Assembly: GCF_000154785.2 (NCBI RefSeq)
Contig: NC_015730.1
Coordinates: 310,001-374,000 of the forward strand
Direction of reading: 5' to 3'
Origin: Roseobacter litoralis Och 149
GTDB taxonomy: Bacteria; Pseudomonadota; Alphaproteobacteria; Rhodobacterales; Rhodobacteraceae
Length of the DNA: 64,000 nt
The notes beneath the pieces are model-generated. The model searched no databases. It was not told the origin of the DNA and worked only from the letters and a program-made list of their open reading frames with translations. Positions 25,840-53,500 of this stretch are shown piece by piece. The position numbers and the translations under genes were made by a program. Every line of letters starts with the position of its first letter. Position 1 is the first letter of the stretch.

Positions 25840-25884
25840 CAGTTAAGTATCCTCTGTTGGATGTTCCGGCCTGCTGGCCAGTTT

Positions 25885-27791: not shown

Positions 27792-27932
27792 ATCCTTTTT
27801 GTGTGATCAACGTATAAATCAAAACAATCCAATCCTTTTTCAAAAAAAATGCGAAGCAGCCTCTTGTGAAGGTTTCTTTGCTGATTGAAGTGAACTCTGC
27901 ATATAAATCAGTCAAAGCAATGCGAGGAAAGT

Positions 27933-28286: not shown

Positions 28287-28340
28287 AACGTCATGCGAAA
28301 GACCTGAAGAATCCGCCGCTGTCTGAAATCAGATATTTCG

Positions 28341-29270: not shown

Positions 29271-29370
29271 TGTTTTGTTTTTTTTGATGCTCTTTGGTCT
29301 TTTGTGTCAATAGCAGAATAATCGAGCACCGCATAGACTGGGTGCATCTCGTCAACACAGGAGAGAAACC

Positions 29371-34400: not shown

Positions 34401-34421
34401 ACGCAGCAAAGGATCAAGATC

Positions 34422-36891: not shown

Positions 36892-38040
36892 TTAGCCGGT
36901 CAGATCCTGCAGCACACGCGTCATCATTGCATCGCATTGATCAAGTTGCGCAAGGTCGAGACCCTCATCCGCTTTATGCCCGTCGCGCGCCATATCGCCC
37001 GGCCCAATCACCAGCGTGTTCAATCCAAGTTCGGCGAAAAAACCGGCCTCGGTGCCAAAGGCAACCTTGGTCGTCTCTCCCCCTTGGGTTATCTTGCGGG
37101 CCCAATCAATCGCCGGGGCATCCGGTGCAACGCACAATCCCGGATAGCTGGTGCGCTGCTTTATCGTCACTGCGCCGCCCGGGGCGAAGGCTTGTGTGCT
37201 GCGCGTGGCGGCGGCGTTGATCTCGGCCAGAATGTCGCCGGGTGATGCATCGGCAAGATGCCGGAATTCCATGCTCAGCGTCACAAGGTCTGGCACGATG
37301 TTCAGCGCTTGCCCGCCGGAAATCTGCCCGACATGGATCGTGGAATAGGGGATGTCATAGGCATCGTCTTTGACTCCCTCGGCCAGTCTGGCCTGAAGTG
37401 CTTGCAATTCGGTCACGAAATGGGACGCCACATGGATCGCATTGACGAATTGCGGGGCCAGCGCGCTGTGACCTGCCTGCCCGTGGCATGTGATGTCCAA
37501 CGCTGATTTGCCCTTGTGCCCGATGGCGATCTGCATGGCGGTCGGCTCGCCGACGATTACGACATCGGGTCTCGCGATAAGGGGCTTCAGCTCTGGCAGC
37601 ATCTCGCGCAGCCCGACGCAGCCGATCTCTTCATCATAGGACAAAACGAGGCTGAGCGGGGCTTTCAGGCATCTCGACTGTGCATGTTCCGCCATGGCGA
37701 GGGCAGAGGCCAGAAACCCCTTCATATCCGTCGCCCCGCGCCCAAAAACGCGCCCCCCCTCTTGCGTGAGCTTGAAGGCTGGGCGGGTCCAGTTTTGCCC
37801 CTCGACAGGCACAACATCGGTATGACCTGACAGGCAGATGCCCCCGTCGATCCGAGGTCCGATCCGCGCAAAAAGCCCTGCCTTGTCGCGCGCCGGTGAC
37901 CAGATCCGCGTCACCTCAAAGCCGCACCCGCTCAGCAGCGCCTCGGCCCAGTCGATCAGATCGAGGTTGCTGTCACGGCTGACCGTCGGAAAGGCCACCA
38001 ATCTGTCGAGCAACGCCAGAGTGCGGGTGGGGTGCGGCAT
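36892..38040 (-). CDS. M20-family deacylase, acetylornithine deacetylase-like (ArgE-like)
   Basis: 382-aa zinc hydrolase. Motifs are SGHTDVVPVEGQNW (metal ligand His and catalytic Asp), GRGATDMKGFLA (bridging Asp) and SYDEEIGCVG (catalytic Glu-Glu), with the dimerisation domain in between. It would normally be named argE, which removes the acetyl group from N-acetylornithine. Here it starts 12 nt after the trimethylamine-dehydrogenase-like gene and is surely co-transcribed with it. A role in deacylating a catabolic amine intermediate is therefore as likely as arginine synthesis, so no symbol is assigned. Confidence 0.9.
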   Translation of the reverse strand: MPHPTRTLALLDRLVAFPTVSRDSNLDLIDWAEALLSGCGFEVTRIWSPARDKAGLFARIGPRIDGGICLSGHTDVVPVEGQNWTRPAFKLTQEGGRVFGRGATDMKGFLASALAMAEHAQSRCLKAPLSLVLSYDEEIGCVGLREMLPELKPLIARPDVVIVGEPTAMQIAIGHKGKSALDITCHGQAGHSALAPQFVNAIHVASHFVTELQALQARLAEGVKDDAYDIPYSTIHVGQISGGQALNIVPDLVTLSMEFRHLADASPGDILAEINAAATRSTQAFAPGGAVTIKQRTSYPGLCVAPDAPAIDWARKITQGGETTKVAFGTEAGFFAELGLNTLVIGPGDMARDGHKADEGLDLAQLDQCDAMMTRVLQDLTG

Positions 38041-38052: not shown

Positions 38053-40122
38053 TTAATCTCGTGCTAGCTCGGTTATTTCACGGCGAAAGGGAAGGGCATC
38101 CCCGATGTCGTCCCCGTCGAGTTCGCGCGCATATCTGTGACCTGCGTAAGTGGCCCACGCGATAGGGCCGGGCGCGTTGGCATCGCCGATCAGCTTCACC
38201 GACTTTATGCCCGCATCCGCCCACTCATCCTCGCGGGACTTGAGGTCCAGATAAACGCCGTTGTTCTCGTGTTTTGAGGCGACCATCACGACGGCTTCGC
38301 AGGCGTAATTGCGGATCGTATCCGTGTAAACGCAGTTGGCTTTGACATGATCCTGCGCAATTTCAGCAACACCATGGTTGAGGATGATTTCCACGCCCAG
38401 ACCAGCCAGTTTCTTGTGGATCGCATGTTGTTCAAGCGTATTCACCGTCCAGTCCGACAGATAGGCAGAGGGCGTGACGATCGTGACATCGCAGCCCTCC
38501 TGAACCAATAGTTCAGCCAGAACGCCGCCCATGTAATAGTGATCATCATCATAGATCACGACCTTGCCGGCGGGTTTTGTGCCCCCCATGATGTCGTCGG
38601 GTGTATAGAGCGGCATCTTGGCATCCAGCGGCATCGGGACCACGTGCTGTCGGCTCACCCCATCGCGACGCCACTGCGCCCCCGTTGCGATACAGACGTT
38701 TTCAAACCCGAATTCGAGGATGCTGCCCGCGTCCAGTTCGCTGTCAAAATAGGTTTCGACGTTGGGTTTCTGGCTGATCTGGTATTCGCGATAATCCACG
38801 ACGCGGCCCCATGCGCTCAGCCCCGGTAATTGCCGCTCGCGGGTGACGCGGCCGCCTAAAACGGTGCTTGCTTCGGCAAGGGCCACTTCATATCCGCGTT
38901 CAGACAGGGCGCGTGCGGCCTCCAGACCCGCCGGGCCAGACCCCACGATCAGTACGTTTTCGCTGGCGCCTTTGGCGTTCATCTGTTCAGGGTGCCAGCC
39001 TTTGCGCCATTCTTCCATGAAGGTGGGGTTCTGCGTGCAGCGGCTGATCGACATGGTCATATCCCCCGTTATGCAGATGTTGCAGCCAATGCACTCGCGG
39101 ATATCCTCGATCCGCCCTTCTTCGATCTTTTTGGGTAGGAAGGGGTCGGCGATGGATGGGCGTGCGCAGCCGATGAAGTCAAGCGTGCCCGAACGGATCA
39201 TCTTGGCCATTACGTCGGGCGAGGTAAACCGCCCCACGCCTACAATCGGCTTGTCCGTTAACTCGTGAATGCCGCGAACCAGTTGCTCTTGTGCTGCTTC
39301 TTCTTTGAACCGTGAGGGGCCGGAGCAATCCTCCCAAGTGCCCTGAGCCAGATCCCAAAGGTCCGGCAGATCGCGGTTCATCTCGATAAAGTCGCGCACC
39401 TCGGCGTTTGAAAACCCCAGATCACCGATTGTCTCATCCAGCGAGACACGCAGCGTGATGCCCATCGTGTCCCCGACGGCCTCCTTTATCTCGGTAATGA
39501 CCTCATTGACGAACCTTGCGCGGTTCTCAAGGCTGCCGCCATATTCGTCGCTGCGTTGATTGGTGGCGCGGCTCAGAAAGTGCTGGAAAATGCCAAAGCC
39601 ATGCGCGCCATAAAGGCAGATCAGATCAAACCCTGCCGCCTTGGATCGCTTGGCCGCGTTCACGAACCACCGCCGCAGATCGCGAATGTCGGATTTGTCC
39701 AGCGCACGCGCCTGAACCGGGTCATTGGTAAAGGTGCGGATCGGCATGGCAGACACGGCCAGCGGGACCTCTTTGGTATAAAGGTTCGGACCATTTATCC
39801 CTGAATAGGCAAGCTGGATACCCGCCAAGGCACCGTATTCCTTCATCTTTTCCGACATTTTGCGCAGCTGCGGGATGTCTTTATCTTCCCAGAGGCGCAA
39901 TTCGATGAACGGCGTGATTTCGGAGGTGTGGTGCATTTCGCATTGCTCGGTAAACACAACGCCCCATCCACCCTGCGATTTGATGCCCCGCATGGCGGCG
40001 GCAGCTGACGGGTCACGATACCCCCCGCCATTGCAATGGGGCACCTGATAAAACCGGTTCTTCGCGGTGACGGGCCCGATCTGCATCGGCTCAAACAGAA
40101 TATCGTAGCGTGGATCGCGCAC
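38053..40122 (-). CDS. FMN/FAD/4Fe-4S amine dehydrogenase, trimethylamine dehydrogenase-like
   Basis: 689-aa flavoprotein of the old-yellow-enzyme/TMADH family. The N-terminal half is a TIM barrel starting YDILFEPMQIGP and containing RFYQVPHC with Cys30, the residue that binds FMN covalently in TMADH. The 4Fe-4S cluster ligands are C344, C347, C350 and C362. A pyridine-nucleotide-disulphide-type domain with NVLIVGSGPAGLEAARAL follows. Related proteins demethylate trimethylamine, dimethylamine, dimethylglycine or N-methylproline, giving an imine and formaldehyde. The substrate here is unresolved. It is the first gene of an operon with the M20 deacylase, and the TTAGG-N5-CCTAA operator lies 80 bp upstream. 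Confidence 0.92.
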   Translation of the reverse strand: MRDPRYDILFEPMQIGPVTAKNRFYQVPHCNGGGYRDPSAAAAMRGIKSQGGWGVVFTEQCEMHHTSEITPFIELRLWEDKDIPQLRKMSEKMKEYGALAGIQLAYSGINGPNLYTKEVPLAVSAMPIRTFTNDPVQARALDKSDIRDLRRWFVNAAKRSKAAGFDLICLYGAHGFGIFQHFLSRATNQRSDEYGGSLENRARFVNEVITEIKEAVGDTMGITLRVSLDETIGDLGFSNAEVRDFIEMNRDLPDLWDLAQGTWEDCSGPSRFKEEAAQEQLVRGIHELTDKPIVGVGRFTSPDVMAKMIRSGTLDFIGCARPSIADPFLPKKIEEGRIEDIRECIGCNICITGDMTMSISRCTQNPTFMEEWRKGWHPEQMNAKGASENVLIVGSGPAGLEAARALSERGYEVALAEASTVLGGRVTRERQLPGLSAWGRVVDYREYQISQKPNVETYFDSELDAGSILEFGFENVCIATGAQWRRDGVSRQHVVPMPLDAKMPLYTPDDIMGGTKPAGKVVIYDDDHYYMGGVLAELLVQEGCDVTIVTPSAYLSDWTVNTLEQHAIHKKLAGLGVEIILNHGVAEIAQDHVKANCVYTDTIRNYACEAVVMVASKHENNGVYLDLKSREDEWADAGIKSVKLIGDANAPGPIAWATYAGHRYARELDGDDIGDALPFRREITELARD

Positions 40123-40201
40123 TCTTATCTCCTACAGCTGCCTTTGCGGCAGTCTACCCGGCTCCCTGTGACCTCAACAGTCGGGCTTGCAAAAGCGTTG
40201 A

Positions 40202-40216
40202 TTAGGACGGCCCTAA
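40202..40216. promoter_or_regulatory. Palindromic operator TTAGG-N5-CCTAA, copy 1
   Basis: TTAGG ACGGC CCTAA lies in the 105-bp gap between the LysR gene and the amine dehydrogenase gene, 80 bp before the dehydrogenase start. The inner bases fit T-N11-A, the general LysR box. The same 15-bp design occurs at 42622-42636 and 49145-49159. Confidence 0.7.
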
Positions 40217-40227
40217 GGCTTGGTGCT

Positions 40228-41163
40228 TCAAAGGTCCCGGATCAGGTTTAATCCGGGTACATGCCCGTCTTTATGCTCGTTCCTGCAGTGTTCGATAAAG
40301 GTGCGGATGACATTGACGCTTTCCGCCTCGGATGAGGTCAACAGTCCCAGCTTCATCGGGCGCATGTCGCCTTCCAGGGGGATGAAACGCAGCGGTTTAC
40401 CGTCGGGGGACAGATCATTCAGAGGGCGCACATTCACGATCGAAAACCCGAAACCGTTTGCAACAAGGCTGCGCATCACGGCCATATCGCGGGTCCTTTC
40501 AGCGATCTGCGGCTTCAGGCCGGTGGCACCAAAGAACGACAGAAAGTATTCGGAACTGAAGGGCAGGTCGAGCAGCACCATCGGGAAGCCCAGCAAATCG
40601 GTGACGCTGATGCTGGCTCGTCCTGCCAGAGGGTGATCTTCGCATAAAATCGCGTAAGGGGGCAGTGTCGCAATCGGTTGAAATTTCAGATCACTCGGCA
40701 AATCAAGATCATACGTCAGGGCAACGTCAATTTCACTGCGCCTGAGCATCGAGAAGATCTGCGCCTGATCCAGTTCATGCTGTGTTACGCGGACGTCTGG
40801 ATAGAGCTTTTCGAAACTTGCCCTGAGGGCGGGGACCACCACCTGCGCAAACGTCAAAAGCCCGCCAATTGACAAAGGGCCCTGCACGTTGCCGGAAATA
40901 TCTGCGGCCAGATCAACCAGACCTTCAGCGTTTTGCAACACCAGCTTGGCTTGTTTGAGCATCTCGCGGCCCGCGAGGGTCGGCGACAGCCCTTGCGCAT
41001 GCTGACGCACGAACAGCGGCAGGCCGAATTCCTTTTCCAGCTGATTGATCGCCGCAGAAATTGACGGCGAGGACACGTTCACCTTTTCGGCCGCCAGTGC
41101 AATGCTGCCCATCTCGCCGACCGCGACGAAGTATTCCAACTGACGTAGGGTGAACCTTAGCAT
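40228..41163 (-). CDS. LysR-family regulator of the amine cluster
   Basis: 311-aa LysR protein: LRFTLRQLEYFVAVGEMGSIALAAEKVNVSSPSISAAINQLEKEF is its helix-turn-helix, followed by a substrate domain (GPLSIGGLLTFAQVVVPAL). It lies upstream of, and in the same direction as, the amine dehydrogenase and deacylase genes, with an operator-like palindrome in the gap. It is the only regulator gene between 36.9 and 50.4 kb and is thus the prime candidate for binding all four palindromes. Activation by an amine or its oxidation product is an inference. Confidence 0.9.
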   Translation of the reverse strand: MLRFTLRQLEYFVAVGEMGSIALAAEKVNVSSPSISAAINQLEKEFGLPLFVRQHAQGLSPTLAGREMLKQAKLVLQNAEGLVDLAADISGNVQGPLSIGGLLTFAQVVVPALRASFEKLYPDVRVTQHELDQAQIFSMLRRSEIDVALTYDLDLPSDLKFQPIATLPPYAILCEDHPLAGRASISVTDLLGFPMVLLDLPFSSEYFLSFFGATGLKPQIAERTRDMAVMRSLVANGFGFSIVNVRPLNDLSPDGKPLRFIPLEGDMRPMKLGLLTSSEAESVNVIRTFIEHCRNEHKDGHVPGLNLIRDL

Positions 41164-41370
41164 GTGTTTTGCCGTTCGATCTGGGTCACGCTTTGTTTTT
41201 ATCCATCCGGGGAGTCATGCCGCGTTACATACCCTATGCATGCACCGAAAGATCAGGTTCAGGCCAGAGCGTTTCATCGCGCGGGCTGAAAAATGTGCCA
41301 CTGGTAGGGTTGCAGGGTCAGTTCAAAGGCAAAACAGGCGCTGGGTCGTCTTTCGCCAAAGGCGTAACCG

Positions 41371-42045
41371 TCAGGCGTCGCCCGGAACGCCATATGAGGG
41401 CGCCTCGCGCGGATCGAGGGCGCGTTGGACGTAAGCCTCCAGTTGCGGTTTGTAGACGTCCCACGCGGTCGCGACGTTTTCAATCGGGCACTCGGTCGTC
41501 CAGTCGCAGCGCAAATCCGCAACGGGCCAGCTGACTTTGTCGACAATCATCATCCCCGCTGAATGAACCGGTCCGGCTTCTCCGCCCGCTGCAAGCGCCG
41601 CGCGCAGGGCTGAGATCAAACGATCACCGATATGGCCTTCGCTGCGCAAAAAACCGTCCAGCATCGCCTGTGGGACACCATCATTGTCCAACAGGTTCCC
41701 GCCAGAGGCTGCGTTTTGCGCCGTCGCCTGTGTCCAGATGCCCAGTGAGTTCGGACCGGAATGAATGGCGGTGCGCCCTGCGGCGTCAACGGCCAGCACC
41801 TGACGATATTCAATGTGCTTGCCCCGTGCGCGCACCTGTTCGATTGCCTGCGCCGCGTCCAGACCCTGCGCCATCAGATCCAGCGCCAGCGGCCCCAGAC
41901 TGGGGTCGGTGATGTTTTGTGAGGCAACCGCGCCAATTCCGGCACGGGCATAGGAACAGCGGGCGGCAACGGCTGGTGAGGAGGAGGAGATTGCAACGCC
42001 GAACATGGCCGTGTCAGCGCAGCGGGCGACAATGGAAAAGGTCAT
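41371..42045 (-). CDS. DUF1028 family protein (Ntn-hydrolase-like)
   Basis: 224-aa protein that starts MTFSIVARCADTAMFGVAISSSSPAVAARCSYARAGIGAVASQN, the clear DUF1028 signature. Members have an Ntn-hydrolase-like fold and no settled biochemical role; some are fused to peptidoglycan-binding domains, which this one is not. It overlaps ridA by 4 nt (ATGA) and is the second gene of that operon. Linkage to RidA and a flavin monooxygenase suggests hydrolysis of an amide or amine-derived intermediate (inference). The 207 bp downstream, to the LysR gene, hold no recognisable feature. Confidence 0.88.
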   Translation of the reverse strand: MTFSIVARCADTAMFGVAISSSSPAVAARCSYARAGIGAVASQNITDPSLGPLALDLMAQGLDAAQAIEQVRARGKHIEYRQVLAVDAAGRTAIHSGPNSLGIWTQATAQNAASGGNLLDNDGVPQAMLDGFLRSEGHIGDRLISALRAALAAGGEAGPVHSAGMMIVDKVSWPVADLRCDWTTECPIENVATAWDVYKPQLEAYVQRALDPREAPSYGVPGDA

Positions 42046-42458
42046 TCCGGGATCACCGCCGTGCCATCAATCTCAACCAGCCATTCGGGGCGGGCAAGCG
42101 CCTGCACCACAAGACCCGTTGAGACAGGATGCACGCCTTTGATGTATGCGCCCATGGTGCGATAGACGGCCTCGCGGTGGCGCACATCGGTGATGTAGAC
42201 GACAACCTTGACCAGATGCTCCATCCCGCCGCCTGCTTCTTCAATGAGTTGTTTGATGTTCTGCATGACCTTATGGGTCTGTGCGACTGGGTCATGGCTG
42301 TCAAGATTGACCGCGTCATCCAGATTTTGCGGGCATTGGCCGCGCAGCCAGACGGTTTTGCCGCCCTGCGTGACCACGGCCTGACACAGGTCATTATCGA
42401 GGTTCTGCTCTGGATAGGTGTCGGATGTGTTGAATTTCCGGATACGGGTATGCGCCAT
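42042..42458 (-). CDS. RidA-family enamine/imine deaminase
   Basis: 138-aa member of the YjgF/YER057c/UK114 family. Typical features are WLRGQCPQNLDD, QTHKVMQNIKQLIEEAGGGMEHLVKVVVYITD, and the C-terminal catalytic-arginine region GLVVQALARPEWLVEIDGTAVI. Such proteins hydrolyse reactive enamines or imines to carbonyl compounds and ammonia. The ATG at 42458 has AGGG about 8 nt upstream and is preferred to the one at 42464. It leads the operon ridA-DUF1028. Its promoter is shared, divergently, with the flavin monooxygenase gene and carries two palindromic operators. Confidence 0.92.
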   Translation of the reverse strand: MAHTRIRKFNTSDTYPEQNLDNDLCQAVVTQGGKTVWLRGQCPQNLDDAVNLDSHDPVAQTHKVMQNIKQLIEEAGGGMEHLVKVVVYITDVRHREAVYRTMGAYIKGVHPVSTGLVVQALARPEWLVEIDGTAVIPE

Positions 42459-42583
42459 TCTCATTTCCCTTTGTGCCAGTCGTAGCCGCGCGCGCGGCCA
42501 GATTGCGCCGGAGCGTGCCGCAAATCACGGGCAGAGTCATGGGCTTTTGCGCCAACACAACGCACGGTCTCCCTCACTGGTGG

Positions 42584-42598
42584 TTAGCCTGTGGCTAA
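42584..42598. promoter_or_regulatory. Variant operator TTAGC-N5-GCTAA
   Basis: TTAGCCTGTGGCTAA is a 15-bp palindrome with a 3-bp centre. It has the same size and T-N11-A form as the TTAGG-type sites and lies 38 bp (centre to centre) from the copy at 42622. LysR proteins often use a strong recognition site plus a weaker activation site, which this pair could be. Confidence 0.55.
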
Positions 42599-42621
42599 GG
42601 GCGCGCCTGAGACGTGGTACT

Positions 42622-42636
42622 TTAGGTTCAGCCTAA
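42622..42636. promoter_or_regulatory. Palindromic operator TTAGG-N5-CCTAA, copy 2
   Basis: TTAGG TTCAG CCTAA lies 98 bp before the flavin monooxygenase start and 164 bp before ridA, in their divergent promoter region. A G follows CCTAA in all three exact copies. Confidence 0.7.
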
Positions 42637-42733
42637 GCAGTGCTGAATGATTTACTGTTTTCGCAGGCCAGATGTGCGGCCTAGGTTGCCTGATCAAGAC
42701 CTGCACCGTCGAAACCTGTGAAAGGATCAAACC

Positions 42734-44029
42734 ATGCCTGCTGAAAAAACAGATACGTTGGTTGTCGGTGCCGGTCAGGCCGGTATCGCCATGAGCGAGC
42801 ATCTGAGCGCGCATGGTATTGCGCATGTTGTGCTGGAGCGCGACCGGATCGCGGAGCGTTGGCGCACGTCGCGCTGGGATTCGCTGGTCGCCAATGGTCC
42901 GGCCTGGCACGACCGCTTTCCGAACCGTGATTATGATGACCCCGATCATGATGCTTTTATCCCTAAGGAGGCTGTTGCCGACTACTTCGTCGATTACGTA
43001 GGCCAGATCAACGCGCCGGTGCGCTGCGGGGTCGAGGTGGAACAGGTCACGCGGCGCAGGGCGGGTGGCGGTTTCGATGTCAAAACAACCGGTGGTGACT
43101 TTGAGGTCCAGCATATCGTTGCGGCAACCGGCGCGTTTCAAGATCCTGTCACGCCCGCTCTGGTGCCGCCTGCTGATGGCCTTATGCAAATTCATTCCAA
43201 CGCCTACCGCAACCCCGCGCAATTGCCAAAAGGGGCGGTGATGGTCGTCGGGGCCGGGTCATCCGGTGCGCAGATCGCCGAAGAACTGATGAATGCAGGC
43301 AGGCAGGTCTATCTGTCGGTCGGCCCACATGACCGCCCGCCACGCGCCTACCGGGGGCGTGATTTCTGCTGGTGGCTGGGTGTTCTGGGAAAATGGGACA
43401 TGCAAACCCCCGGACCGGGGACCGAACATGTGACCATTGCCGTCAGCGGTGCAAATGGCGGGCGGACCGTTGATTTCAGGCGGTTTGCTGCGCAGGGCAT
43501 GCAGCTTGTGGGCCGAACGCAGGCGTTCCGGGAGGGCCAGTTGCATTTTGCGGATGACCTGCGCGCGAACATCGCGAAGGGGGATGCAAATCACCGATCT
43601 TTGTTAGATGAGGCGGACGCCTATATCGAGCGTTTGGGCCTCGATCTGCCGCCGGACCCGGAGGAGCGCAAGCGCTGGCCCGACCCCGCCTGTCTGACGC
43701 AGCCGATCCGCACGCTTGATCTGGCTGAGGCGGGGGTGACGTCGATCATCTGGGCCACCGGGTTTTCCTGCGACTACAGTTGGCTGCAGGTCGATACCTT
43801 TGATGCAAACGGCAAGCCGATCCACGCGCGCGGTGTTTCAAAAGAGTCGGGGATCTATTTCCTCGGACTGCCATGGCAGTCGCGGCGCGGCTCCTCGTTT
43901 ATCTGGGGCGTGTGGCATGATGCGAAATTTGTGGCGGATCACATTGCTACGCAGCATAGCTATCTGACCTATCGCCCATCGCAGCAGTCACAAAGCGAAG
44001 ACACCGTGAACAAGGTCGCCACTGGCTGA
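42734..44029 (+). CDS. Flavin-containing monooxygenase (CzcO/FMO-like)
   Basis: 431-aa FAD/NADPH protein. The FAD-binding GAGQAG motif is at residues about 10-15 (LVVGAGQAGIAMSEHL), WDSLVANGPAWHDRFP follows, and the NADPH motif VVGAGSSGAQIAEEL lies near residue 172, preceded by an IHSNAYRNP stretch resembling the FMO fingerprint. It ends with a typical IWATGFSCDYSW motif. Enzymes of this group oxygenate nitrogen, sulphur or ketone carbons. It is not close to trimethylamine monooxygenase Tmm by its N-terminal motifs. Two operator palindromes precede it, tying it to the amine regulon; N-oxygenation of an amine is a reasonable guess only. Confidence 0.87.
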   Translation: MPAEKTDTLVVGAGQAGIAMSEHLSAHGIAHVVLERDRIAERWRTSRWDSLVANGPAWHDRFPNRDYDDPDHDAFIPKEAVADYFVDYVGQINAPVRCGVEVEQVTRRRAGGGFDVKTTGGDFEVQHIVAATGAFQDPVTPALVPPADGLMQIHSNAYRNPAQLPKGAVMVVGAGSSGAQIAEELMNAGRQVYLSVGPHDRPPRAYRGRDFCWWLGVLGKWDMQTPGPGTEHVTIAVSGANGGRTVDFRRFAAQGMQLVGRTQAFREGQLHFADDLRANIAKGDANHRSLLDEADAYIERLGLDLPPDPEERKRWPDPACLTQPIRTLDLAEAGVTSIIWATGFSCDYSWLQVDTFDANGKPIHARGVSKESGIYFLGLPWQSRRGSSFIWGVWHDAKFVADHIATQHSYLTYRPSQQSQSEDTVNKVATG

Positions 44030-44034
44030 GTGGC

Positions 44035-44066
44035 GCCGGATCAATACGCGCATGCGCTGATCCGGC
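44035..44066. terminator. Hairpin between convergent monooxygenase and deacetylase genes
   Basis: GCCGGATCA (44035-44043) pairs with TGATCCGGC (44058-44066). The 14-nt loop itself contains the palindrome GCGCATGCGC. It lies 6 nt after the monooxygenase stop and 9 nt from the convergent gene's stop, and could terminate both. It has no long T tract. Confidence 0.5.
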
Positions 44067-44074
44067 CCAATCGT

Positions 44075-45112
44075 TTATGGGGCATTCGCGCGTTCGAATC
44101 CTTGCAGAACGTTGACCGCATTGACGCCGATCTCATCGACGTCATAGCCCCCTTCCATGATGAAATGGGTTGGCAGCCCTGCACTGGCGATATCGGCACC
44201 CATGGTCAGGAAATCATCACTTTTCAGTTTGAAAAAACTGATCGGGTCGGTTTCGAACGTATCAACGCCAAGTGAAATAATCAGCACGTCGGGTTTATAT
44301 TCAGCGATGCGCGCAAGCCCTTTGTGCAAGGCTGCCTGCCAGACATCAAACGGTGTATCGGGTGGCATTGGGAAGTTGAGGTTAAAGCCTGTCCCGGCAC
44401 CGCTGCCTGTCTCTTCGGCGTGCCCAAGGTGATAGGGGAAGGTCTCCAGCGGGTCGCCATGCAACGAGATAAAAAACACATCGCTGCGGTCATAGAAGAT
44501 ATCCTGCGTGCCGTTCCCGTGGTGAAAATCAACATCGAGGATCGCAACGCGTTTGGCCCCTTGATCAAGGAAATGCTGCGCGCTGATCGCGGCGTTGTTG
44601 AAGAAGCAATAGCCGCCATACATATCCGCCGTCGCGTGATGGCCCGGTGGACGGCAAAGCGAAAAGACAGCCCCCGCACCGGCACGAATACGGGCCGCCC
44701 CTGTCAGTGCGACCTGCGCACTGGCGTAGGCGGCCTCCCATGTGCCTTCCGTCAGGCTCGTTTCACCGGCAAGCGCGTAGTAGCCCAACTGGCCTTCGAC
44801 ATGGTTTGGCCGGATATGTGACATGCGCCGCCCGACCCATGTTGTGGGGATCGCCTCACCGTTAAACCCCGCCTCTTTCCAGCGCGCGGGGGCCGTTTTC
44901 AGAAAGGCGACGAACTCGGTATCATGGATGGCAAGGATCGGGTCCATGCCGAAATCATCGGGATCGCTGACCGGGCCCAGATCGGTTTCGCGGACGCGAT
45001 CCAGCACGTATTCGGCGCGGCTGGGCCGCTCGAAAGGTTCGACCAGCTCACCGCCGCAGAGCTCCGTCTTGGCGTCGCGGAGCTTGTGTTTTTCCGTATA
45101 GATGGTTTCCAT
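44075..45112 (-). CDS. Histone-deacetylase-family protein, probable acetylpolyamine amidohydrolase
   Basis: 345-aa zinc amidohydrolase of the HDAC superfamily. The active-site motifs are CRPPGHHAT with H158-H159, DVDFHHGNGTQDIFY with the zinc-binding Asp and His, and LGVDTFETDP. Bacterial relatives such as AphA and AphB of Pseudomonas remove acetyl groups from acetylputrescine or acetylcadaverine and sit beside polyamine transporters. Here it follows a PotF-like binding-protein gene by 66 nt at the end of a five-gene transport operon, which strongly supports that role. A hairpin in the 66-nt gap may lower its expression relative to the binding protein. Confidence 0.88.
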   Translation of the reverse strand: METIYTEKHKLRDAKTELCGGELVEPFERPSRAEYVLDRVRETDLGPVSDPDDFGMDPILAIHDTEFVAFLKTAPARWKEAGFNGEAIPTTWVGRRMSHIRPNHVEGQLGYYALAGETSLTEGTWEAAYASAQVALTGAARIRAGAGAVFSLCRPPGHHATADMYGGYCFFNNAAISAQHFLDQGAKRVAILDVDFHHGNGTQDIFYDRSDVFFISLHGDPLETFPYHLGHAEETGSGAGTGFNLNFPMPPDTPFDVWQAALHKGLARIAEYKPDVLIISLGVDTFETDPISFFKLKSDDFLTMGADIASAGLPTHFIMEGGYDVDEIGVNAVNVLQGFERANAP

Positions 45113-45135
45113 CGGGGGTCTTTCTCAGGCATTGG

Positions 45136-45172
45136 TGGCACCGGGCGGTGCAGCCTGCAGCGCCCGGTGCCA
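45136..45172 (-). terminator. Attenuator-type hairpin after the binding-protein gene
   Basis: A perfect 12-bp stem, TGGCACCGGGCG (45136-45147) with CGCCCGGTGCCA (45161-45172), lies 6 bp after the binding-protein stop, inside the operon and before the deacetylase gene. No T tract follows, so it more likely stabilises the upstream mRNA or attenuates than ends transcription completely. Confidence 0.65.
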
Positions 45173-45178
45173 GTGTCC

Positions 45179-46213
45179 CTATTTCTTGAGGTTGGTCCAG
45201 ATGCGGTCATAGACGGCCTGAACTTCCTGCGTGCATGTTTCGACAAACACGCCCTCAATACCCGCCGGTGGGTTGCCTTCGGGTTCCAGCGCCAAGGTTG
45301 GATCGTGAAAGGCCTCGCTGCCTTCGATCGCATCACGATAGCGGGCGTAGTTCGTCACGGCGGCGATGTTTTCAGGTTCCAGCAGGAAATCCATGAACAA
45401 TATCGCATTTTCCGGGTTTGGTGCGTCTTTGAGCAAGACGACGCTGTCCATCCAATTCACCCAACCCTGTTTGGGAAAGGCATATTGAAGGCTCGCGCGC
45501 GCCTCACGGGCTTTGGCGCCAAAACCGTTAAAAATCATGCCCGCAGCCACATCGCCGGCCTCCAGCACTTCCTTGGCGGTATCGGAGTTGAAAGAGGCCC
45601 AATGTGGTTTTGCCGCCTGTAGCATTGCATCCAGCGCCTTGAGCTGTTCACGGTCGGTTGAACACTGCGGGATGCCCATATGTACAGCGGCGAGTGCGAG
45701 AACTTCGCCCTGACTGTCGATCATATTGATCTTGCCCTGCAATTCCGCGGGCGGGTTAAAGATAATGTCGGTGGTGTTTATCTCACCGGAATAAGCCGCC
45801 GTATCCACCGAAAAGCTGGTCGTGCCCCCTTGATAGGGGATCGAATGGCGCAGGCCGGGATCATAGGCGGGGTCGCGGAACTCGGCTTTGATGTTGGCCA
45901 TATTTTTGCGCGCACCCTCGGGGATCTCACCCGCCATGCCTTCCGCAATCAGGATAGAGACCATGTAATCTGTCGGAACCACTACGTCATAGCTGCCCAA
46001 GGCCCCGGCTTTCAGCGTGGCCAGCATCGCTTCGTTGGAGTCGTAGGTGTCCATGACCACTTCGACATCGTGTTCTGCCGCGAATTTGTCGAGCAATTCC
46101 TGCGGGATATACTCAAACCAATGATAGATGGAGAGCTTTCCCTCGGCCTGTGCGCCGCCCGTTGCCAAAATGAGTGCCGCGATGGCGGCTGTTGGTCTGA
46201 GTAGTGGTTTCAT
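45179..46213 (-). CDS. Polyamine-type ABC transporter substrate-binding protein (PotF-like) 1
   Basis: 344-aa periplasmic protein with a signal peptide (LRPTAAIAALILATGGAQAEG). The mature part starts KLSIYHWFEYIPQELLDKF; the aromatic pair in YHWFEY is of the sort that cages polyamine ligands in PotD/PotF, and VVPTDYMVSILI and NYARYRDAI are typical of the family. It is co-transcribed with the permeases and ATPase. It is strongly similar to the protein encoded at 49413-50441 but differs around the likely pocket (YQGGTTSFSV and MIFNGFG here, YQWGSTAFAV and MIYDGFS there). The two may therefore bind different amines. Confidence 0.92.
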   Translation of the reverse strand: MKPLLRPTAAIAALILATGGAQAEGKLSIYHWFEYIPQELLDKFAAEHDVEVVMDTYDSNEAMLATLKAGALGSYDVVVPTDYMVSILIAEGMAGEIPEGARKNMANIKAEFRDPAYDPGLRHSIPYQGGTTSFSVDTAAYSGEINTTDIIFNPPAELQGKINMIDSQGEVLALAAVHMGIPQCSTDREQLKALDAMLQAAKPHWASFNSDTAKEVLEAGDVAAGMIFNGFGAKAREARASLQYAFPKQGWVNWMDSVVLLKDAPNPENAILFMDFLLEPENIAAVTNYARYRDAIEGSEAFHDPTLALEPEGNPPAGIEGVFVETCTQEVQAVYDRIWTNLKK

Positions 46214-46230
46214 TGGTTTTCCCCGTTGGT

Positions 46231-47040
46231 TTATTTCTTGTCGCCGGATTTACTGACGAAATATGAGATCGTGACCATCACGATCGAGAATGCCAACAAC
46301 ATGGTCGAAATGGCCATGATATTGGGTTTGATGCCCTGTTTGACCGCCCCGAAAATCGCCGTCGGCAACGTTTCCACGCCCGCGCCTTTTACGAAATTCG
46401 TGATGATGAAATCATCCAGCGAAATGATGAAGGCGAGCAGAAACCCCGAAATGATACCGGGCATCATCAGCGGAAGCAGGATCTTGGTGAACGCCTGCCG
46501 CTTGGTGGCATAAAGGTCCATGGCGGCTTGTTCATATGTGTCCTCGATACCCTGCATGCGCGCGGCAATGGGCAGATAGGCAAAGGGAATGCAAAAGGCG
46601 ATATGTGCCAGCAGAATGGTCAAAAGACCCCGGTCAAAGCCAATGGAGTTGAAGAAAATCAGCGTCGCAACGGCGGTGACGATCTCCGGCACCATCAGCG
46701 GCAATGAAATCAGCCCCAGCGACACAAGGCGCAGTCGAAAACGCCCGCCCCGGATCATGGCCGTTGCCGCAAAGGTCGCGATCGTCGTGGACACCGTGGC
46801 GGCGATGATGGCGATGACAAAGCTGTTGCGTGCCGCGACTTTGAACTTGGCACTTTCCGGTCCGACAAAGACGTCTTTGTACCATCTGAGGGAAAACCCT
46901 TCCCAGACCACGATGGATGCGGATGCGTTGAAGCTGTAGATCATGACCACCATCAGCGGCACATAGAGGATCAGCAGGCACAGCACTGTGATCTGGGCGA
47001 AGCCGGGATAGGCTTTGACGTCGAATTTGCGTGCGGCCAT
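46231..47040 (-). CDS. ABC transporter permease, PotI/PotC-like
   Basis: 269-aa inner-membrane permease with six hydrophobic segments. The cytoplasmic EAA loop is represented by [28 protein letters not shown], and [28 protein letters not shown] near the end is a strong PotC/PotI signature. It pairs with the adjacent PotH-like permease, starting 3 nt after it, and is followed 17 nt later by the binding-protein gene. The transporter imports polyamine-like compounds. Confidence 0.93.
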
Positions 47041-47043
47041 GGC

Positions 47044-47970
47044 TTAACCGCTCCCGCGATTGGCGCGTGCCTGCTGGCGCGCGTAAAAGAGCAGGATCAG
47101 CAACACGAGGGTCAGCAGGATCATGGAGGCCGCCGCCCCAAAGGGCCAGTTGCCTGCGTTGCCCTTGAACTGCTCTTCGATCAGTGAGCCGATCATGAAA
47201 TTCTTGGCCCCGCCCAGCAGGTCGGGGGCGAGAAACGCGCCCAAAGAGGGTACGAACACCAGAATGCAGCCCGCGATGACGCCCGGTTTGATCGAAGGCA
47301 GAATGATCCGCCGCAGCGTCGTCCATTTGGAGGCATAAAGATCCGATGCCGCCTCGCTGAGGGAAAAGTTGTAGCGTTCAACGGCGGCGTAGATCGGCAG
47401 GACCATGAAGGGCAGGTAGGAATAGAACAGACCGATCTGCACTGCGAAATTGGTGTTGATCATCTGCAGGGGGCTGTCGATCAGGCCGCTCCACATCAGG
47501 GTGTTGTTGATCGGCCCTTCCTCGCGCAGCATGAACCGCATGGAGACCGTGCGGATCAAAAGGTTGACCCAATAGGGAATGGTGATCAGGAACACCCAGA
47601 GCGGGCGCACATTTGCAGGGCGCGTGGCGATGAAATAGGCGGTCGGAAAGCCGATCAGCAGGCTGAGGATGGTCGCCAGCCCGGCCTGCCATATAGAGCG
47701 CCAGAAGATTGTGATATATGTCCATTCGATGGCGCAGGGTTCATCATCGAAAAGGCCCCGGTCGCAGAAAAACTGTTCGTAAGCTGCGAACGAGAACTCC
47801 CAGATGACGCCACCGCGAAACTCCTTGGTCAGGAAAGAATAGACCAGCATCAGCGATACAGGCAGCAGGACAAGCACGATCAGCGTGACCCAGGCGGGCA
47901 TCAAAAGCCACGTGCGTGCTTCCTTGTAAGTATCGCCCTGTGTGCCGCCGCTGGCAGTGCCGCCCGCCAT
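47044..47970 (-). CDS. ABC transporter permease, PotH/PotB-like
   Basis: 308-aa inner-membrane permease. It has an N-terminal transmembrane segment (WLLMPAWVTLIVLVLLPVSLML), then TMVYS-like PotB/PotH features (PYWVNLLIRTVSMRFML), and an EAA-type loop (LSEAASDLYASKWTTLRRIILPSIKPGV). Its ATG overlaps the TGA of the ATPase gene by one base (TGATG), which implies translational coupling. It forms the membrane channel together with the PotI-like subunit. Confidence 0.93.
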   Translation of the reverse strand: MAGGTASGGTQGDTYKEARTWLLMPAWVTLIVLVLLPVSLMLVYSFLTKEFRGGVIWEFSFAAYEQFFCDRGLFDDEPCAIEWTYITIFWRSIWQAGLATILSLLIGFPTAYFIATRPANVRPLWVFLITIPYWVNLLIRTVSMRFMLREEGPINNTLMWSGLIDSPLQMINTNFAVQIGLFYSYLPFMVLPIYAAVERYNFSLSEAASDLYASKWTTLRRIILPSIKPGVIAGCILVFVPSLGAFLAPDLLGGAKNFMIGSLIEEQFKGNAGNWPFGAAASMILLTLVLLILLFYARQQARANRGSG

Positions 47971-49061
47971 CAGTTCGCCAGCAACCGGGCAGAGCCGAAT
48001 TCGACATCGACGAAAACCTCCGCGCCGGGTTCAAAGGTCATCGTCCTGCCTGTTTCGGAGTTCTGCGTGCGCACGGCCAACTGCATCCCGCCCTGCAGAT
48101 GCACAATGGTCTGCACATCTGTTCCGGCATAGATATTTTCAACGACTTGTCCCTGAAAGTTCTCTGTTTCAACTTTGGTGCTGCGCAGCTTTATCCGTTC
48201 AGGGCGGATGGACATATGCACCCTGTCGCCGACGTTTATACCCTCCACCGCGTCGCAGGTCAGGGTGAGGCCATTTGAAAACGCACAAAGCACACGGGTC
48301 GCGTCGCGCGATTTGATCGTAACCTCGATCAGGTTGGTCTCCCCGATGAAATCAGCGACAAACCGGTTTGCGGGCTTTTCATAAATGTCGCGGGCATCGC
48401 CGAGTTGCTGTAATTCGCCTGCGGACATCACCGCGATCCGGTCCGACATCGTCAACGCCTCGTCCTGATCATGGGTCACAAAGATGAACGTGATGCCTGT
48501 CTCGCGTTGCAAATGCTTTAGCTCCAGCTGCATCGCTTTGCGCAGTTTCAGATCGAGGGCCGACAGTGGCTCATCCAGCAACAAGACCTTTGGTTGCGGG
48601 GCCAGCGCGCGGGCCAGCGCCACACGTTGCTGCTGGCCGCCAGACAGTTGCGAAGGCTTGCGATTGGCGAATTGCGATAACTGCACAAGTTCCAGAATTT
48701 CGCCCGCCCGCGCGCGTGCCTGCGCCTTGGGTTTACCCAGCATCTCCAGCCCGAAACTCACGTTTTCCATCACGTCCATATGCGGAAAAAGCGCGTAATT
48801 CTGAAAGACCGTGTTGACCGGGCGCTTGTTGGGCGGCAAATCCTCAATCTCTTCGCCATAGAGGAATATCTCGCCTTCGGTCACGTCTTCGAAACCGGCG
48901 ATCATCCGCAGAAGCGTTGTTTTCCCACAGCCGGACGGGCCAAGCAGCGTGAAAAATTCATTATCTCTGATCGACAGTGAGATCGTTTTGAGAGCGGTGA
49001 AATCACCATAGCGCTTTACGGCATTTCGCACATCAATCGCGTTTGGAACCTCTTGAGACAC
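47970..49061 (-). CDS. ABC transporter ATP-binding protein, PotA/PotG-like
   Basis: 363-aa ATPase: Walker A GPSGCGKTTL near residue 40, Q-loop QNYALFPHMDV, signature LSGGQQQR, Walker B LLLDEPLSALD and the switch histidine in VTHDQDEAL. The C-terminal part is the TOBE-like regulatory domain usual in PotA. It is the first gene of the operon potA-potH-potI-potF-aphA. The palindromic operator at 49145-49159 lies 84 bp before its start, the same distance class as at the amine dehydrogenase gene. Confidence 0.94.
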   Translation of the reverse strand: MSQEVPNAIDVRNAVKRYGDFTALKTISLSIRDNEFFTLLGPSGCGKTTLLRMIAGFEDVTEGEIFLYGEEIEDLPPNKRPVNTVFQNYALFPHMDVMENVSFGLEMLGKPKAQARARAGEILELVQLSQFANRKPSQLSGGQQQRVALARALAPQPKVLLLDEPLSALDLKLRKAMQLELKHLQRETGITFIFVTHDQDEALTMSDRIAVMSAGELQQLGDARDIYEKPANRFVADFIGETNLIEVTIKSRDATRVLCAFSNGLTLTCDAVEGINVGDRVHMSIRPERIKLRSTKVETENFQGQVVENIYAGTDVQTIVHLQGGMQLAVRTQNSETGRTMTFEPGAEVFVDVEFGSARLLAN

Positions 49062-49144
49062 CGGCTCTCCCCAAAGTCGTCAGAATTTAACAAAACATAT
49101 TGAGCGGTCTTGTACCACGTAAGCATTCTCTGCCTCAGCCTGTA

Positions 49145-49159
49145 TTAGGCACAGCCTAA
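49145..49159. promoter_or_regulatory. Palindromic operator TTAGG-N5-CCTAA, copy 3
   Basis: TTAGG CACAG CCTAA lies in the 351-bp divergent region between the transporter ATPase gene (84 bp from its start) and the second binding-protein gene (254 bp away). The right half and preceding bases, CAGCCTAAG, are identical to copy 2. Confidence 0.7.
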
Positions 49160-49412: not shown

Positions 49413-50441
49413 ATGAAGCTACTGAATTCCACCGCCCTGGCCACCGCATTATTCGCCACCAGCGTTGCTGCCGAGGGCGAGTTGGTTCTGTATCACTGGT
49501 TTGAGTATATGCCGCAGGAATTGCTGGAAAAGTTCACCGCTGAAACCGGCGTAAACGTCACCATGGATACATATGATTCAAACGAAGCCATGCTGGCGTC
49601 GCTCAAGGCCGGTGGTATGGGCACCTATGACCTCGCCGTGCCGGGCGACTATATGGTTGAGATCATGGCGGGCGAAGGTTTGCTGGACACGATTGCGGAA
49701 GGTGAACTGTCCAACAAGGGCAATATCGCAGCGGAATGGGCGGACCCCAGCTTTGACCCCGGACGCAAGCATTCAATCCCCTATCAATGGGGTTCTACCG
49801 CTTTTGCCGTTGATACCGACGCGTTCAGCGGGGCCATCAACACGACGGATATTCTGTTTAACCCGCCTGCCGAACTGTCGGGAAAAATCAACATGCTGGA
49901 TAGTCAGGGTGAAGTTCTGGCCATGGCGTCCCTGCATATGGGCATCCCGCAGTGTTCAACGGATCGTGCGCAACTCAGCGCTTTGAACGATATGCTACAG
50001 GAGGCCAAAACGCATTGGGCGTCTTTCAACTCTGACACCGCCAAAGAGGTTCTTGTGTCCGGTGATGTGGATGTTGGCATGATCTATGACGGCTTCAGCG
50101 CCAAGGCCCGTGCGGAAAAAGCGTCGATCACATATGCTTTCCCGGCCGAAGGGTACGTTGTCTGGATGGACAATGTGGTTTTGTTGAACGACGCGCCAAA
50201 CCGGGACAACGCCATCAAATTCATGGATTTCCTGCTGGAACCCGAAAACATCGCGGTAGTGTCGAATTATGCCCGCTATGGCAATGGCGTGACGGGCACC
50301 GGTGAATTCCTTGACCCGGAACTGGCGACTTTGCCTGAATCAAACCCGCCAGCAGATGCGGGTGCGGGTGCCTTTATTCAGGTTTGCGATGAGGCGACAC
50401 AGGCGGTGTACGATCAGATTTGGGTCAATCTGAAAAAGTAG
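49413..50441 (+). CDS. Polyamine-type ABC transporter substrate-binding protein (PotF-like) 2
   Basis: 342-aa periplasmic binding protein with a signal peptide (MKLLNSTALATALFATSVAAEG). It is a close paralogue of the binding protein at 45179-46213: YHWFEYMPQELLEKF, MDTYDSNEAMLA, NTTDILFNPPAELSGKINMLDSQGE and HWASFNSDTAKEVL are shared almost unchanged. It has no permease or ATPase genes of its own and is divergent from the transporter operon, so it probably feeds the same channel with another ligand. GGAGAGAAAAAC precedes the ATG. A strong hairpin follows the stop codon. Confidence 0.92.
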   Translation: MKLLNSTALATALFATSVAAEGELVLYHWFEYMPQELLEKFTAETGVNVTMDTYDSNEAMLASLKAGGMGTYDLAVPGDYMVEIMAGEGLLDTIAEGELSNKGNIAAEWADPSFDPGRKHSIPYQWGSTAFAVDTDAFSGAINTTDILFNPPAELSGKINMLDSQGEVLAMASLHMGIPQCSTDRAQLSALNDMLQEAKTHWASFNSDTAKEVLVSGDVDVGMIYDGFSAKARAEKASITYAFPAEGYVVWMDNVVLLNDAPNRDNAIKFMDFLLEPENIAVVSNYARYGNGVTGTGEFLDPELATLPESNPPADAGAGAFIQVCDEATQAVYDQIWVNLKK

Positions 50442-50576: not shown

Positions 50577-53500
50577 TCAGGCCATGAAACTATCCAGATA
50601 GATCAACCCGTCTTGCAGGGCGAGATACCCGGCAACCTCGTTTGTGTGGTCCACTTCAGTGTCCGCAGACCGCTCTTCCTGCACAAACATCGAGACGCCG
50701 TTTGCGTCGATCTCGCTCAGGCGCAGCGTGGCCGTATCAACGCCGTCTGTCGTTTGCATGTCTGCAATAAAGACGGGCGTGTCGGTAAAGGGTTGCGTGA
50801 ATACAAAGCTGTCGGCGCGTTCATCAAGCTGATCGCCTGTGCGCACGGCTTCCAACCCGCCGCTGCCGCCGGTTTCAATGGCGATCCAGGAGACGGTCTC
50901 GGCGACATGGGCGCCGCCGGCTTCTTCCTCTTCGATCTGAACCTCGAACCCTTGGTCGGTGACGCTGCGGATGCGCGTGGCAAGGGCTGCAGCGTCGTTC
51001 ACCGTGGTGGTCTCCGCAAAGACAATGGCATCGTCCAGCGTTTCCCCAAAGGCGACAGCGGCGAACCCAACGCCAACAGACGCCGTTGATGCGACGATGG
51101 TCTGGCCGCTGTTTAGGGTGTGTGAGCCTTCGGCGATGGCCAGCCATCCGATATCCTCGACGCCATGGACCCCATCCAGATAATCCCATTCGTCGATCTG
51201 GAACTCGAAACCGTTGTCGGTGACATTTCGCACACGCGTGGTCAATTCTTGCGCGTCGTTACTTGTGACGGGACCCAGCACCACGACTGCGTTTTCGATT
51301 TGCGTGTCAAACGCCACGCTATGCCATTGATCTGGTCCCGTTTGACCTACCGAAGCGACCCCACCTTGTCCGATAGCATCCGTCAGCAGCGGTTCGTCCA
51401 ACCCGTTGATGGTCACTGTCACGGAGGCGCTGGATATGGCGCCATCCGCATCCGTGACGGAATAAACAAACTGATCTGTCGCGGTCTGCCCTGTACTCAA
51501 TGCATCGAATGCACCGTTCTGATCATAGGTGAGGGTCTGGTCGGTATCCCATTTGACGCGCGCGCCCGAAGCAAGCGTGACCGTCTGACCGATGGTAACT
51601 GGCTGACCCTCGATGCCGGACAAAGACAACACATCACCGTCTGCATCCACATCATTCGCCAGAACATCCAGCGACAGCGCCACGTCCTCGGTCACGGTTG
51701 CGGTATCGTTCTGCGCCACCGGTGCGGTGTTTGGCTGGTCATTGACAAAGATCAGGCCACCTTTGAGCGCCACGACACCAAGGGTTTCATCCGTATGGCC
51801 AATTTCGGTGTCTTGAGATTGCTCTTCCTCGACAAAGAGAGAGACGCCCGTGGCGTCAACAGCGGCGAGGCGCGTGGTTGATGTGTCTGCGCCATCAGTG
51901 GATTGCATGTCGGCCAGCACCACCGGCGCGGTCACAAAGTTGGCGTTGAAATCATAGCGCGACGCTGTCTCGTTCACCTCATCCGGGGTGATGAACGCTT
52001 CGAAAATCGCGTTTTGACCGGTTTCAATCGCGATCCACGACACGGTTTCATCCACATGCGCGCCGCCTGCTTCTTCTTCGGTGATCTGCGTCTGAAAGCC
52101 CTGATCGGTGACGTTGCGGATGCGGGTGGTCACGGCACTGGCCTCATTGAGTGATGTAACCTCAGCCAAAACCACGGCGTTGCTCAGCGTTTCACCAAAG
52201 CTGAGCGTTTCAAGGCCGGTGCCAACGGATGCGGTCGCGGCAACAATCGTCTCGCCGCTGCTGAGCGTATGGGATCCCTCGGACACGGCCAGCCAGCCGA
52301 TACTCTCGCTTGTGTGGACTCCATCCAGATAATCCCATTCGTCGATCTGGAACTCGAAACCTGTGTCCGTGACATTGCGCACCCGTGTGCTGAGCGGGGC
52401 ATCGTCAAAGTCACTTGCCGGGCCCATCACGACGACAGCGTCTGCAATTGCCGTTGCAAAGCTGACCGTGTGCCATTGACCAGGGCCGGCTTGCGACACG
52501 GTGGCCACGCCACTTTGCCCGACGGGTGCCGCCGAAGGGCTATCATCCACGCCGTTCACCGTGATCGTCACAGTAGCCGTGTTCGATTGGTCACTGTCAT
52601 CGGTTGCGGTATAGGTGAAACTGTCGGTAGCTGATTGCCCCTCGTTAAGGGCATCGAACGCGCCGTTGGGGTCATAATCGAACGTCCCATTCGGATCGAC
52701 CGTCAGCAATGCGCCGGAGGCGAGGGCAATCTGACTGCCGACATTCGCGGCTTCGTTGTTCACGGTGGCGACGCTGAGCGGGTCGCCATCGCCATCGGTG
52801 TCATTGGCCAGAATACTGGCCGCTGCAAGCGGGCTGGCCTCATCGGTTGCAAAGGCATCGTCGCTCGCAACGGGTGCCGCATTGCTTCCCAGCCCATCCA
52901 GAATGTTCTGAAAGCTGAAGGTCTGATCATCAAAGCTGAGGAATTCAACAGTGTTTTCTACAAGGTTCATCGCGACATTGATCACAGAAAGGAACGTGCC
53001 GCTGATGCTGAAGGAATAGTTTGAAAACAGACCGAGAAAATCGACCGTGTCGGTGCCGGAGCCGCCGTAATAGGTGTCATCCCCAAGGCTGTCGTTAAAG
53101 GTGTCGTTGCCACCATTGCCCCTGAAAACATTCGAGGCATCATTGCCAAAAAACGTATCCGATCCCGAACCGCCAATGGCGTTCTCGATGATCGTGCCTT
53201 CAGCGAGCGTCAGATTGCCCGTCAGACCGCCGATGTTGGAGATAGACGGTGCCGTCGCGAACTGGCTGGTGGGGGTCAGGTTGATCAGTTGGTTTGCGGA
53301 ATATCCACTGAAATCAAGCGTGTCGATGCCGGCTGCATCCACAATCGTCGAGGCGGTTCTGTTTGCATAGGTTGCAAACTCAGCCCAGATATTCGACGTG
53401 TTGGCGGAGATATTGGTGTTGAACCCATAGACCGTATCGCCCAGAAACGCGTTGCTGATGCCAAAATTCGTGCCGCCAGAGCTCTGATCGCCGTACATGT

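Follow-up and report, generated by a model that had tools for sequence, protein, structure and literature searches.

We analysed a window of 64,000 nucleotides from the genome of Roseobacter litoralis Och 149 (C3:310001–374000), in which four copies of the palindrome TTAG-N7-CTAA each precede a presumed transcription unit within a 9-kb gene cluster. The palindrome is very probably the recognition site of the LysR-type regulator encoded at 40228–41163 (minus strand), which would activate units for histamine uptake and breakdown; binding, inducer, substrate and direction of control are putative. Judged from sequence, the best reading of the circuit is a LysR-activated histamine-catabolism regulon comparable to that of HinK in Pseudomonas, that is, one more of a known type. 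The original prediction had called the regulon unrecognised. Our literature search yielded no paper on it, one query leading instead to a paper on methionine regulation, but that search covered open-licence papers only, so the description is not proven, and it must be qualified by the comparable histamine regulator HinK published for Pseudomonas.

The palindrome was originally described in a longer form, TTAGG-N5-CCTAA. Exact copies are present at 40202–40216, 42622–42636 and 49145–49159, all intergenic and, as predicted, 80, 98 and 84 bp before the start codons of the dehydrogenase, monooxygenase and PotA genes. None occurred in 100 dinucleotide shuffles of the window. The claim that the window holds no other exact copy extends to the whole genome (4,745,450 bases, four contigs), which has the same three and none elsewhere inside or outside genes; a reversed control pattern was found four times. 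Allowing up to one mismatch gave 14 places (control, 136), the 11 added all lying outside the window. The core TTAG-N7-CTAA occurs at 10 places genome-wide (control, 47), four of them within the cluster. Positions 5 and 11 of the palindrome are variable in relatives (G in 66% and C in 68%), and the operator core is TTAG-N7-CTAA rather than the full TTAGG-N5-CCTAA. This core holds T2-N11-A14, the interrupted palindrome with T-N11-A of promoters controlled by LysR-type regulators, in agreement with the proposed fit. The fourth cluster copy, TTAGC-N5-GCTAA at 42584–42598, had rightly been located but was underrated as a mere variant: it faces the RidA, DUF1028 and LysR genes and carries part of a conserved downstream block. 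A further remark, that G follows the right half of each copy, is true on the plus strand only: minus-strand genes lie ahead of three of the four sites, and in the direction of the gene the base is T, C, G and T. The six core copies outside the cluster were considered as further targets, and inspection of their flanks by eye revealed no downstream block in any of the six. Three of them fall within the end of an slt-like open reading frame (ORF), within a cheR-like ORF and 22 bp before the listed start of a ppx-like ORF.

The site is conserved at the same promoters in related genomes, one of the expectations attached to the original prediction. A search of genome contigs with the LysR protein gave 20 loci, of which the 16 at 61–85% identity (L004–L019) were taken for comparison and the four at 23–25% were left out. 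The palindrome or its one-mismatch form stands ahead of the dehydrogenase, potA, monooxygenase or RidA gene in most of the 16; L012 and L018 had no palindrome at either level. When 13 window proteins were compared across loci, 44 of 54 loci with a LysR identity of at least 52% had the core no more than 250 bp from a cluster gene, versus 0 of 16 below this line, which was set after seeing the data, as L112 and L117 (LysR 53.8%) carry the site and would fall into the low group under a 54% line (2 of 18). Among loci with at least one cluster gene, the promoter site was present in 9/9 (at least 70% identity), 18/22 (60–70%), 17/23 (52–60%), 0/6 (45–52%), 0/7 (30–45%) and 0/3 (<30%). The site tracks the LysR orthologue, in line with the earlier choice of this regulator as the natural candidate. 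Of the 91 sites in 58 loci, 78 are at most 250 bp from a cluster gene, and the distance from site to gene is 74–120 bp in 75 of 93 cases. Five loci from another family of the class (f10; L142, L145, L146, L148 and L149) have the operator 97–150 bp before the dehydrogenase gene.

Exact palindromes were also counted in 149 Rhodobacteraceae genomes. The LysR protein was detected at E 1e-80 or better in 40 of these (42 places), and 54 distinct exact palindromes were present in 32 genomes. Of the 54, 20 (in 15 genomes) are no more than 10 kb from the LysR orthologue, where about 0.08 would be expected from a binomial with a mean genome size of 3.85 Mb set by eye; without the window's own genome the count is 17 of 51. 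The remaining 34 copies are divided between LysR-bearing genomes (12) and genomes lacking the LysR protein (22). Four of the 12 are copies in trans that carry the downstream block, with scores of 10.7–13.8: three precede the start of a monooxygenase match by about 85–97 bp, and the fourth lies about 1.4 kb upstream of RidA-DUF1028. Twenty of the 22 score below zero. The other two, L188 (17.8) and L196 (7.0), have no cluster genes nearby and were taken as chance, GntR-like and transposase-like ORFs being the neighbours of L188. A TTAG-N7-CTAA copy at the very start of a dehydrogenase gene in L210 was likewise taken as chance, its genome having no LysR match at 1e-60.

A dyad scan of 152 promoters (250 bp, four gene types, 56 loci with LysR identity of at least 54%) placed TTAG-N7-CTAA first among 4352 dyads, with 80 promoters against 12 for the best unrelated dyad; a site in a divergent promoter may count for both genes. 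The dyads TAGG-N5-CCTA (40), CTTA-N9-TAAG (16), ATTA-N9-TAAT (15) and GCTT-N11-AAGC (12) are all either contained in this palindrome or extensions of it. By gene type, the core was present before 32/47 monooxygenase, 20/30 dehydrogenase, 18/26 PotA and 10/49 RidA genes. Matches from tblastn covering 60% or less of the query were discarded, and promoters were taken only if the match began within 20 residues of the start. The dyad scan and logo drew on 87 loci. A 40-column profile was scored on 98 (11 added; L137 and L169 overlap), reaching at least 20 in 56 of 61 loci with LysR identity of at least 52% and 17–20 in three more, compared with 3/9 (45–52%), 1/13 (30–45%) and 0/15 (<30%) in the lower groups. 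This profile was built from many of the loci later scored, and independent evidence comes only from the four trans copies and from loci that lack an exact core.

A logo of 77 sites, read toward the gene, exposed a second conserved block. The eight core bases were fixed by selection, and the evidence lies in the other columns only: C17 (72%), G21 (72%), C22 (67%), T23 (77%), A29 (92%), T35 (70%), T38 (89%), T39 (84%) and T40 (66%), followed by A62 (61%, with T in 32%) and T66 (67%) in the −10 region. The 20 bases preceding the site are at background (0.00–0.14 bits). At the 56 sites outside the closest relatives, A29, T38 and T39 each retain about 1.6 bits and A62 0.83, while T66 is down to 0.41. 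The block spans positions 21–40, or +13 to +32 from the palindrome centre, and overlaps the −35. The conserved −35 (38–43), a 17-bp spacer and the −10 (61–66) put the predicted start near position 73 and thus the palindrome centre (position 8) near −65. In promoters of LysR-type activators, the recognition site lies near −65 and the activation site near −35. The predicted promoters fit this layout and resemble canonical ones in their T-N11-A palindrome, in the second block at −35 and in their frequent position between divergent genes; the one difference seen is that the activation block is no obvious copy of the palindrome. In the window, three of the four sites (operators 1, 2a and 3) have TAnnnT at 61–66, and A29 is kept at all four. 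The operators and their downstream positions are as follows.

40202..40216, minus strand: operator 1, a site presumably recognised by LysR, 80 bp ahead of the start codon of the histamine dehydrogenase-like gene
40177..40196, minus strand: positions 21–40 after operator 1, presumed from the logo of 77 sites to be the activation block overlapping the −35; the letters here are GCT at 21–23, A29 and TGT at 38–40
40151–40156, minus strand: TAGACT in the −10 position after operator 1
42584..42598, minus strand: operator 2b, TTAGC-N5-GCTAA, 120 bp upstream of the RidA gene, in the RidA-DUF1028-LysR direction
42559..42578, minus strand: positions 21–40 after operator 2b, keeping A29, T35, T39 and T40 and lacking G21, C22 and T38; poor −10, GACTCT
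42622..42636, plus strand: operator 2a, 98 bp upstream of the flavin monooxygenase gene
42642..42661, plus strand: positions 21–40 after operator 2a, with TAGGTT at 42682–42687 in the −10 position
49145..49159, minus strand: operator 3, 84 bp upstream of potA
49120..49139, minus strand: positions 21–40 after operator 3, with TATGTT at 49094–49099 in the −10 position

From their spacing and strand, the cluster genes are presumed to form four units, each with its own operator at the distance given above: dehydrogenase-deacylase; RidA-DUF1028-LysR; flavin monooxygenase; and potABC-binding protein-amidohydrolase. Behind the 42584 copy, LysR is the third gene, after RidA and DUF1028, and a gap of about 200 bp precedes it. 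The protein is LysR-type by its Pfam domains, HTH_1 (68.5 bits) and LysR_substrate (120.3 bits), both above cut-off. The genes are as follows.

36892..38040, minus strand: M20 deacylase, scoring above the NCBIfam cut-off for the acetylornithine-deacetylase family; encoded 12 bp behind the dehydrogenase gene and proposed as HinG-like
38053..40122, minus strand: histamine dehydrogenase-type flavin mononucleotide enzyme, 689 residues
40228..41163, minus strand: LysR-type regulator, 311 residues, with HTH_1 and LysR_substrate domains; presumed operator binder from co-occurrence with the site
41371..42045, minus strand: DUF1028 protein, proposed HinH-like from gene order
42042..42464, minus strand: RidA-family protein, proposed HinL-like from gene order
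42734..44029, plus strand: flavin monooxygenase-like enzyme, proposed HinF-like from gene order
44075..45112, minus strand: enzyme of the acetylpolyamine amidohydrolase family with an HDAC fold, encoded at the end of the presumed pot operon
45179..46213, minus strand: polyamine-type (PotD-like) solute-binding protein
46231..47040, minus strand: PotC-like permease with a binding-protein-dependent transport domain, named from operon position
47044..47970, minus strand: PotB-like permease, an ORF named from operon position
47970..49061, minus strand: PotA-like ATPase, first gene behind operator 3

A second PotD-like binding protein is encoded at 49413–50441 (plus strand), at the opposite end of the pot genes and in a different presumed operon; of the two, only the protein at 45179–46213 lies behind operator 3.

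We propose that a LysR tetramer would bridge the palindrome, about 65 bp before the predicted start of each of the four presumed units, and the downstream block overlapping the −35, where LysR-type activators put their activation site. An inducer made from the amine, perhaps imidazole-4-acetate by analogy with HinK, would shift LysR on the activation block. The shifted protein would recruit RNA polymerase and turn on uptake and breakdown of histamine and perhaps of related amines. Through the RidA unit, LysR would also switch on itself.

The substrate is suggested by the dehydrogenase. Against the PDB, it scored 1253 bits to the histamine dehydrogenase 6de6 (presumably from a Rhizobium), 812 to 3k30 and 542 to trimethylamine dehydrogenase, and over the 412 compared residues its identity to 6de6 is 86%. 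Among 33 cluster dehydrogenases including that of the window, identity to 6de6 was 73–88%, with 31 of the 33 at 80–88% over about 412 residues. The 'amine dehydrogenase' of the window is histamine dehydrogenase-like in sequence and putatively so in activity. We had first suspected that the cluster serves homarine or methylamine catabolism, an idea that the literature search did not settle and that was dropped because the dehydrogenase proved histamine-type.

The closest solved relatives of the window LysR protein are 3fzv and 6m5f (183 bits), both titled 'probable transcriptional regulator', and it is about 35% identical to 3fzv (tblastn). These structures presumably represent HinK. In L133, L140 and L141, a regulator 58–59% identical to 3fzv adjoins monooxygenase-RidA-DUF1028-deacylase genes, which we infer from their order and kind to be the same operon as hinFLHG. 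No TTAG-N7-CTAA was found before these genes in the three loci, and L133 has one unplaced copy. A search for a recurring 5-bp dyad before flavin monooxygenase, RidA and LysR genes (16 loci, low or no LysR identity) gave none that recurred in L133, L140 and L141. The window partners of the dehydrogenase also resemble hinFLHG by gene order. HinK is described as a self-regulating LysR-type regulator that binds a conserved motif in the hinD and hinF promoters and responds to imidazole-4-acetate, with hinFLHG corresponding to PA5393–PA5390 and hinG encoding a 'probable peptidic bond hydrolase' (PMC8231116). The HinK box given for the pvdS and pqsA promoters is T-N11-A (PMC10912698). The two regulons would share LysR-type control of histamine-degrading genes and of the regulator's own gene; they are alike in the T-N11-A box, in having several separate operons and apparently in four genes in the same order. 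They differ in uptake (HinA permease in Pseudomonas, a Pot-type ATP-binding cassette transporter here) and in the first step (HinC and HinD there, histamine dehydrogenase here).

Several observations weigh against histamine control by this LysR protein. The pot transporter and the amidohydrolase (458.6 bits to 6phr) fit polyamines equally, and substrate and inducer rest on homology. Thirty of the 34 distant exact copies look unrelated, including eight of the 12 in LysR-bearing genomes, whose downstream-block scores are below zero; the palindrome alone is therefore insufficient. In ten of the 54 high-identity loci, none of the four gene types has an exact core at 250 bp or less: L091, L108 and L113 have it elsewhere in the locus, and seven have sites with one or two mismatches only (profile 18.7–30.7). 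L018 and L098 encode the LysR protein with neither site nor cluster genes, and in G573 (LysR 67%, dehydrogenase 82–83%) the site precedes potA and not the dehydrogenase gene. Several cluster sites score poorly on the downstream block, down to −24.4; among the window's sites, T38 is missing and the −10 poor at operator 2b, and operator 1 lacks T35 and T39.

We also weighed other explanations. The sites could be bound by LysR in the service of general polyamine catabolism (putrescine, acetylpolyamine, agmatine) with a polyamine-derived inducer, as the Pot-type transporter, two PotD-like proteins and amidohydrolase of the cluster might suggest. We consider this unlikely: the dehydrogenase is closest by far to histamine dehydrogenase, the monooxygenase-RidA-DUF1028-deacylase set occurs with no adjoining pot operon in L130–L133 and L140, and in L133 and L140 it adjoins the 3fzv-like regulator. 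That an unlinked regulator binds the palindrome, the LysR gene being a mere neighbour, appears very improbable. No operator stands directly before lysR, the nearest upstream one preceding the RidA unit, and conserved regulators outside the 13 compared proteins could exist; but site presence follows LysR identity sharply, and both the T-N11-A form and the predicted place near −65 are those of LysR sites. An inverted repeat in an untranslated region might act as an RNA terminator or attenuator hairpin, which, judged from the logo with no terminator or RNA scan made, is scarcely credible for a 5-bp stem that has no T-run and, at about 65 bp upstream of the predicted start, would stay outside the transcripts of these promoters. 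Finally, palindromes are short and 30 of the 54 exact family copies have no tie to the cluster, yet a functionless repeat due to chance or shared ancestry is as good as dismissed by the empty shuffles, the excess near LysR, the top rank in the dyad scan and a downstream block conserved beside background upstream bases.

If the palindrome is the LysR operator, it may have changed together with the regulator. Loci with 45–50% identical LysR proteins have the profile matches TTCGGAAATTCCGAA (L119), ATCGGAATTTCCGAA (L138), ATCGGATTTGCCGAA (L122) and ATAGGTTTTGCCGAA (L121, 102 bp before the monooxygenase). All four have TTT at 38–40, as across the family, and the recognition helices of their proteins read SQPS or SPPS, compared with SSPS (within VSSPSIS) in the window LysR. 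Such co-variation of operator and helix is suggestive only, picked after the fact and confounded by descent. A simple rule is contradicted by five f10 loci that have SPPS and keep TTAG, by L165 (49%, SAPS), whose best site is TTAG-like with one mismatch (24.4), and by four of the nine loci in the 45–52% band with no match above 10. L119 and L138 also encode RidA, DUF1028 and a LysR protein about 50% identical to that of the window, and have TTCGG/ATCGG-N5-CCGAA (at 5545 and 7117, respectively) before an ORF that in L119 resembles 4-hydroxyphenylacetate 3-monooxygenase; they may represent a sister regulon whose operator has changed. For LysR relatives of about 36–44%, an ATAG-N7-CTAT operator was considered from single sites in L135, L140, L171 and L209. 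It is weak and not claimed: five copies occur in 20 loci versus four in the high group with three times the bases, and the L209 site precedes a dehydrogenase gene (profile 11.7).

Other features were noted in passing. Elsewhere in the genome, an identical perfect palindrome, TTAGAACGGTTCTAA, is present at G000 C3:1905085 and C3:3117491 (L158, L159), and a related one, TTAGAATAATTCTAA, at C3:3800438; these are perhaps another regulator's operator. Neighbouring window genes show resemblances to known ones. At 24421–30603 there are genes resembling those of purine or urate breakdown, including a permease, a ureidoglycolate lyase-like protein, a LysR-like regulator, a 472-residue fusion of polysaccharide-deacetylase and OHCU-decarboxylase-like parts, and a membrane protein with a cytochrome c-like end. 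The pair of genes at 32841–36824 resembles those for DabB/DabA-type uptake of inorganic carbon, and a LysR-like gene lies divergently at 31854–32738. The region 50577–54482 encodes a 1301-residue protein with the zinc-protease motif HEVGHALGLGH and repeated cadherin-like stretches.

What began as a bare palindrome can now be put forward as a testable circuit, for which the regulator, four promoters with their predicted starts and a candidate substrate are named. The analysis also supplies a sequence rule by which new genomes can be searched for the regulon, and the putative circuit is common to many related bacteria. More tentatively, and with slightly less than even confidence, we suggest a widespread alphaproteobacterial histamine regulon with its own LysR lineage apart from HinK, in which the operator drifts with the regulator: TTAG-N7-CTAA at LysR identities of at least 52%, and, at 45–50%, WTCGG-N5-CCGAA or mixed forms, the downstream block staying the same. 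If this is true, many marine bacteria regulate their use of histamine. Histamine is an animal signal and a product of seafood spoilage, and our results suggest that it is a regulated nutrient for Roseobacter-type and other alphaproteobacteria.

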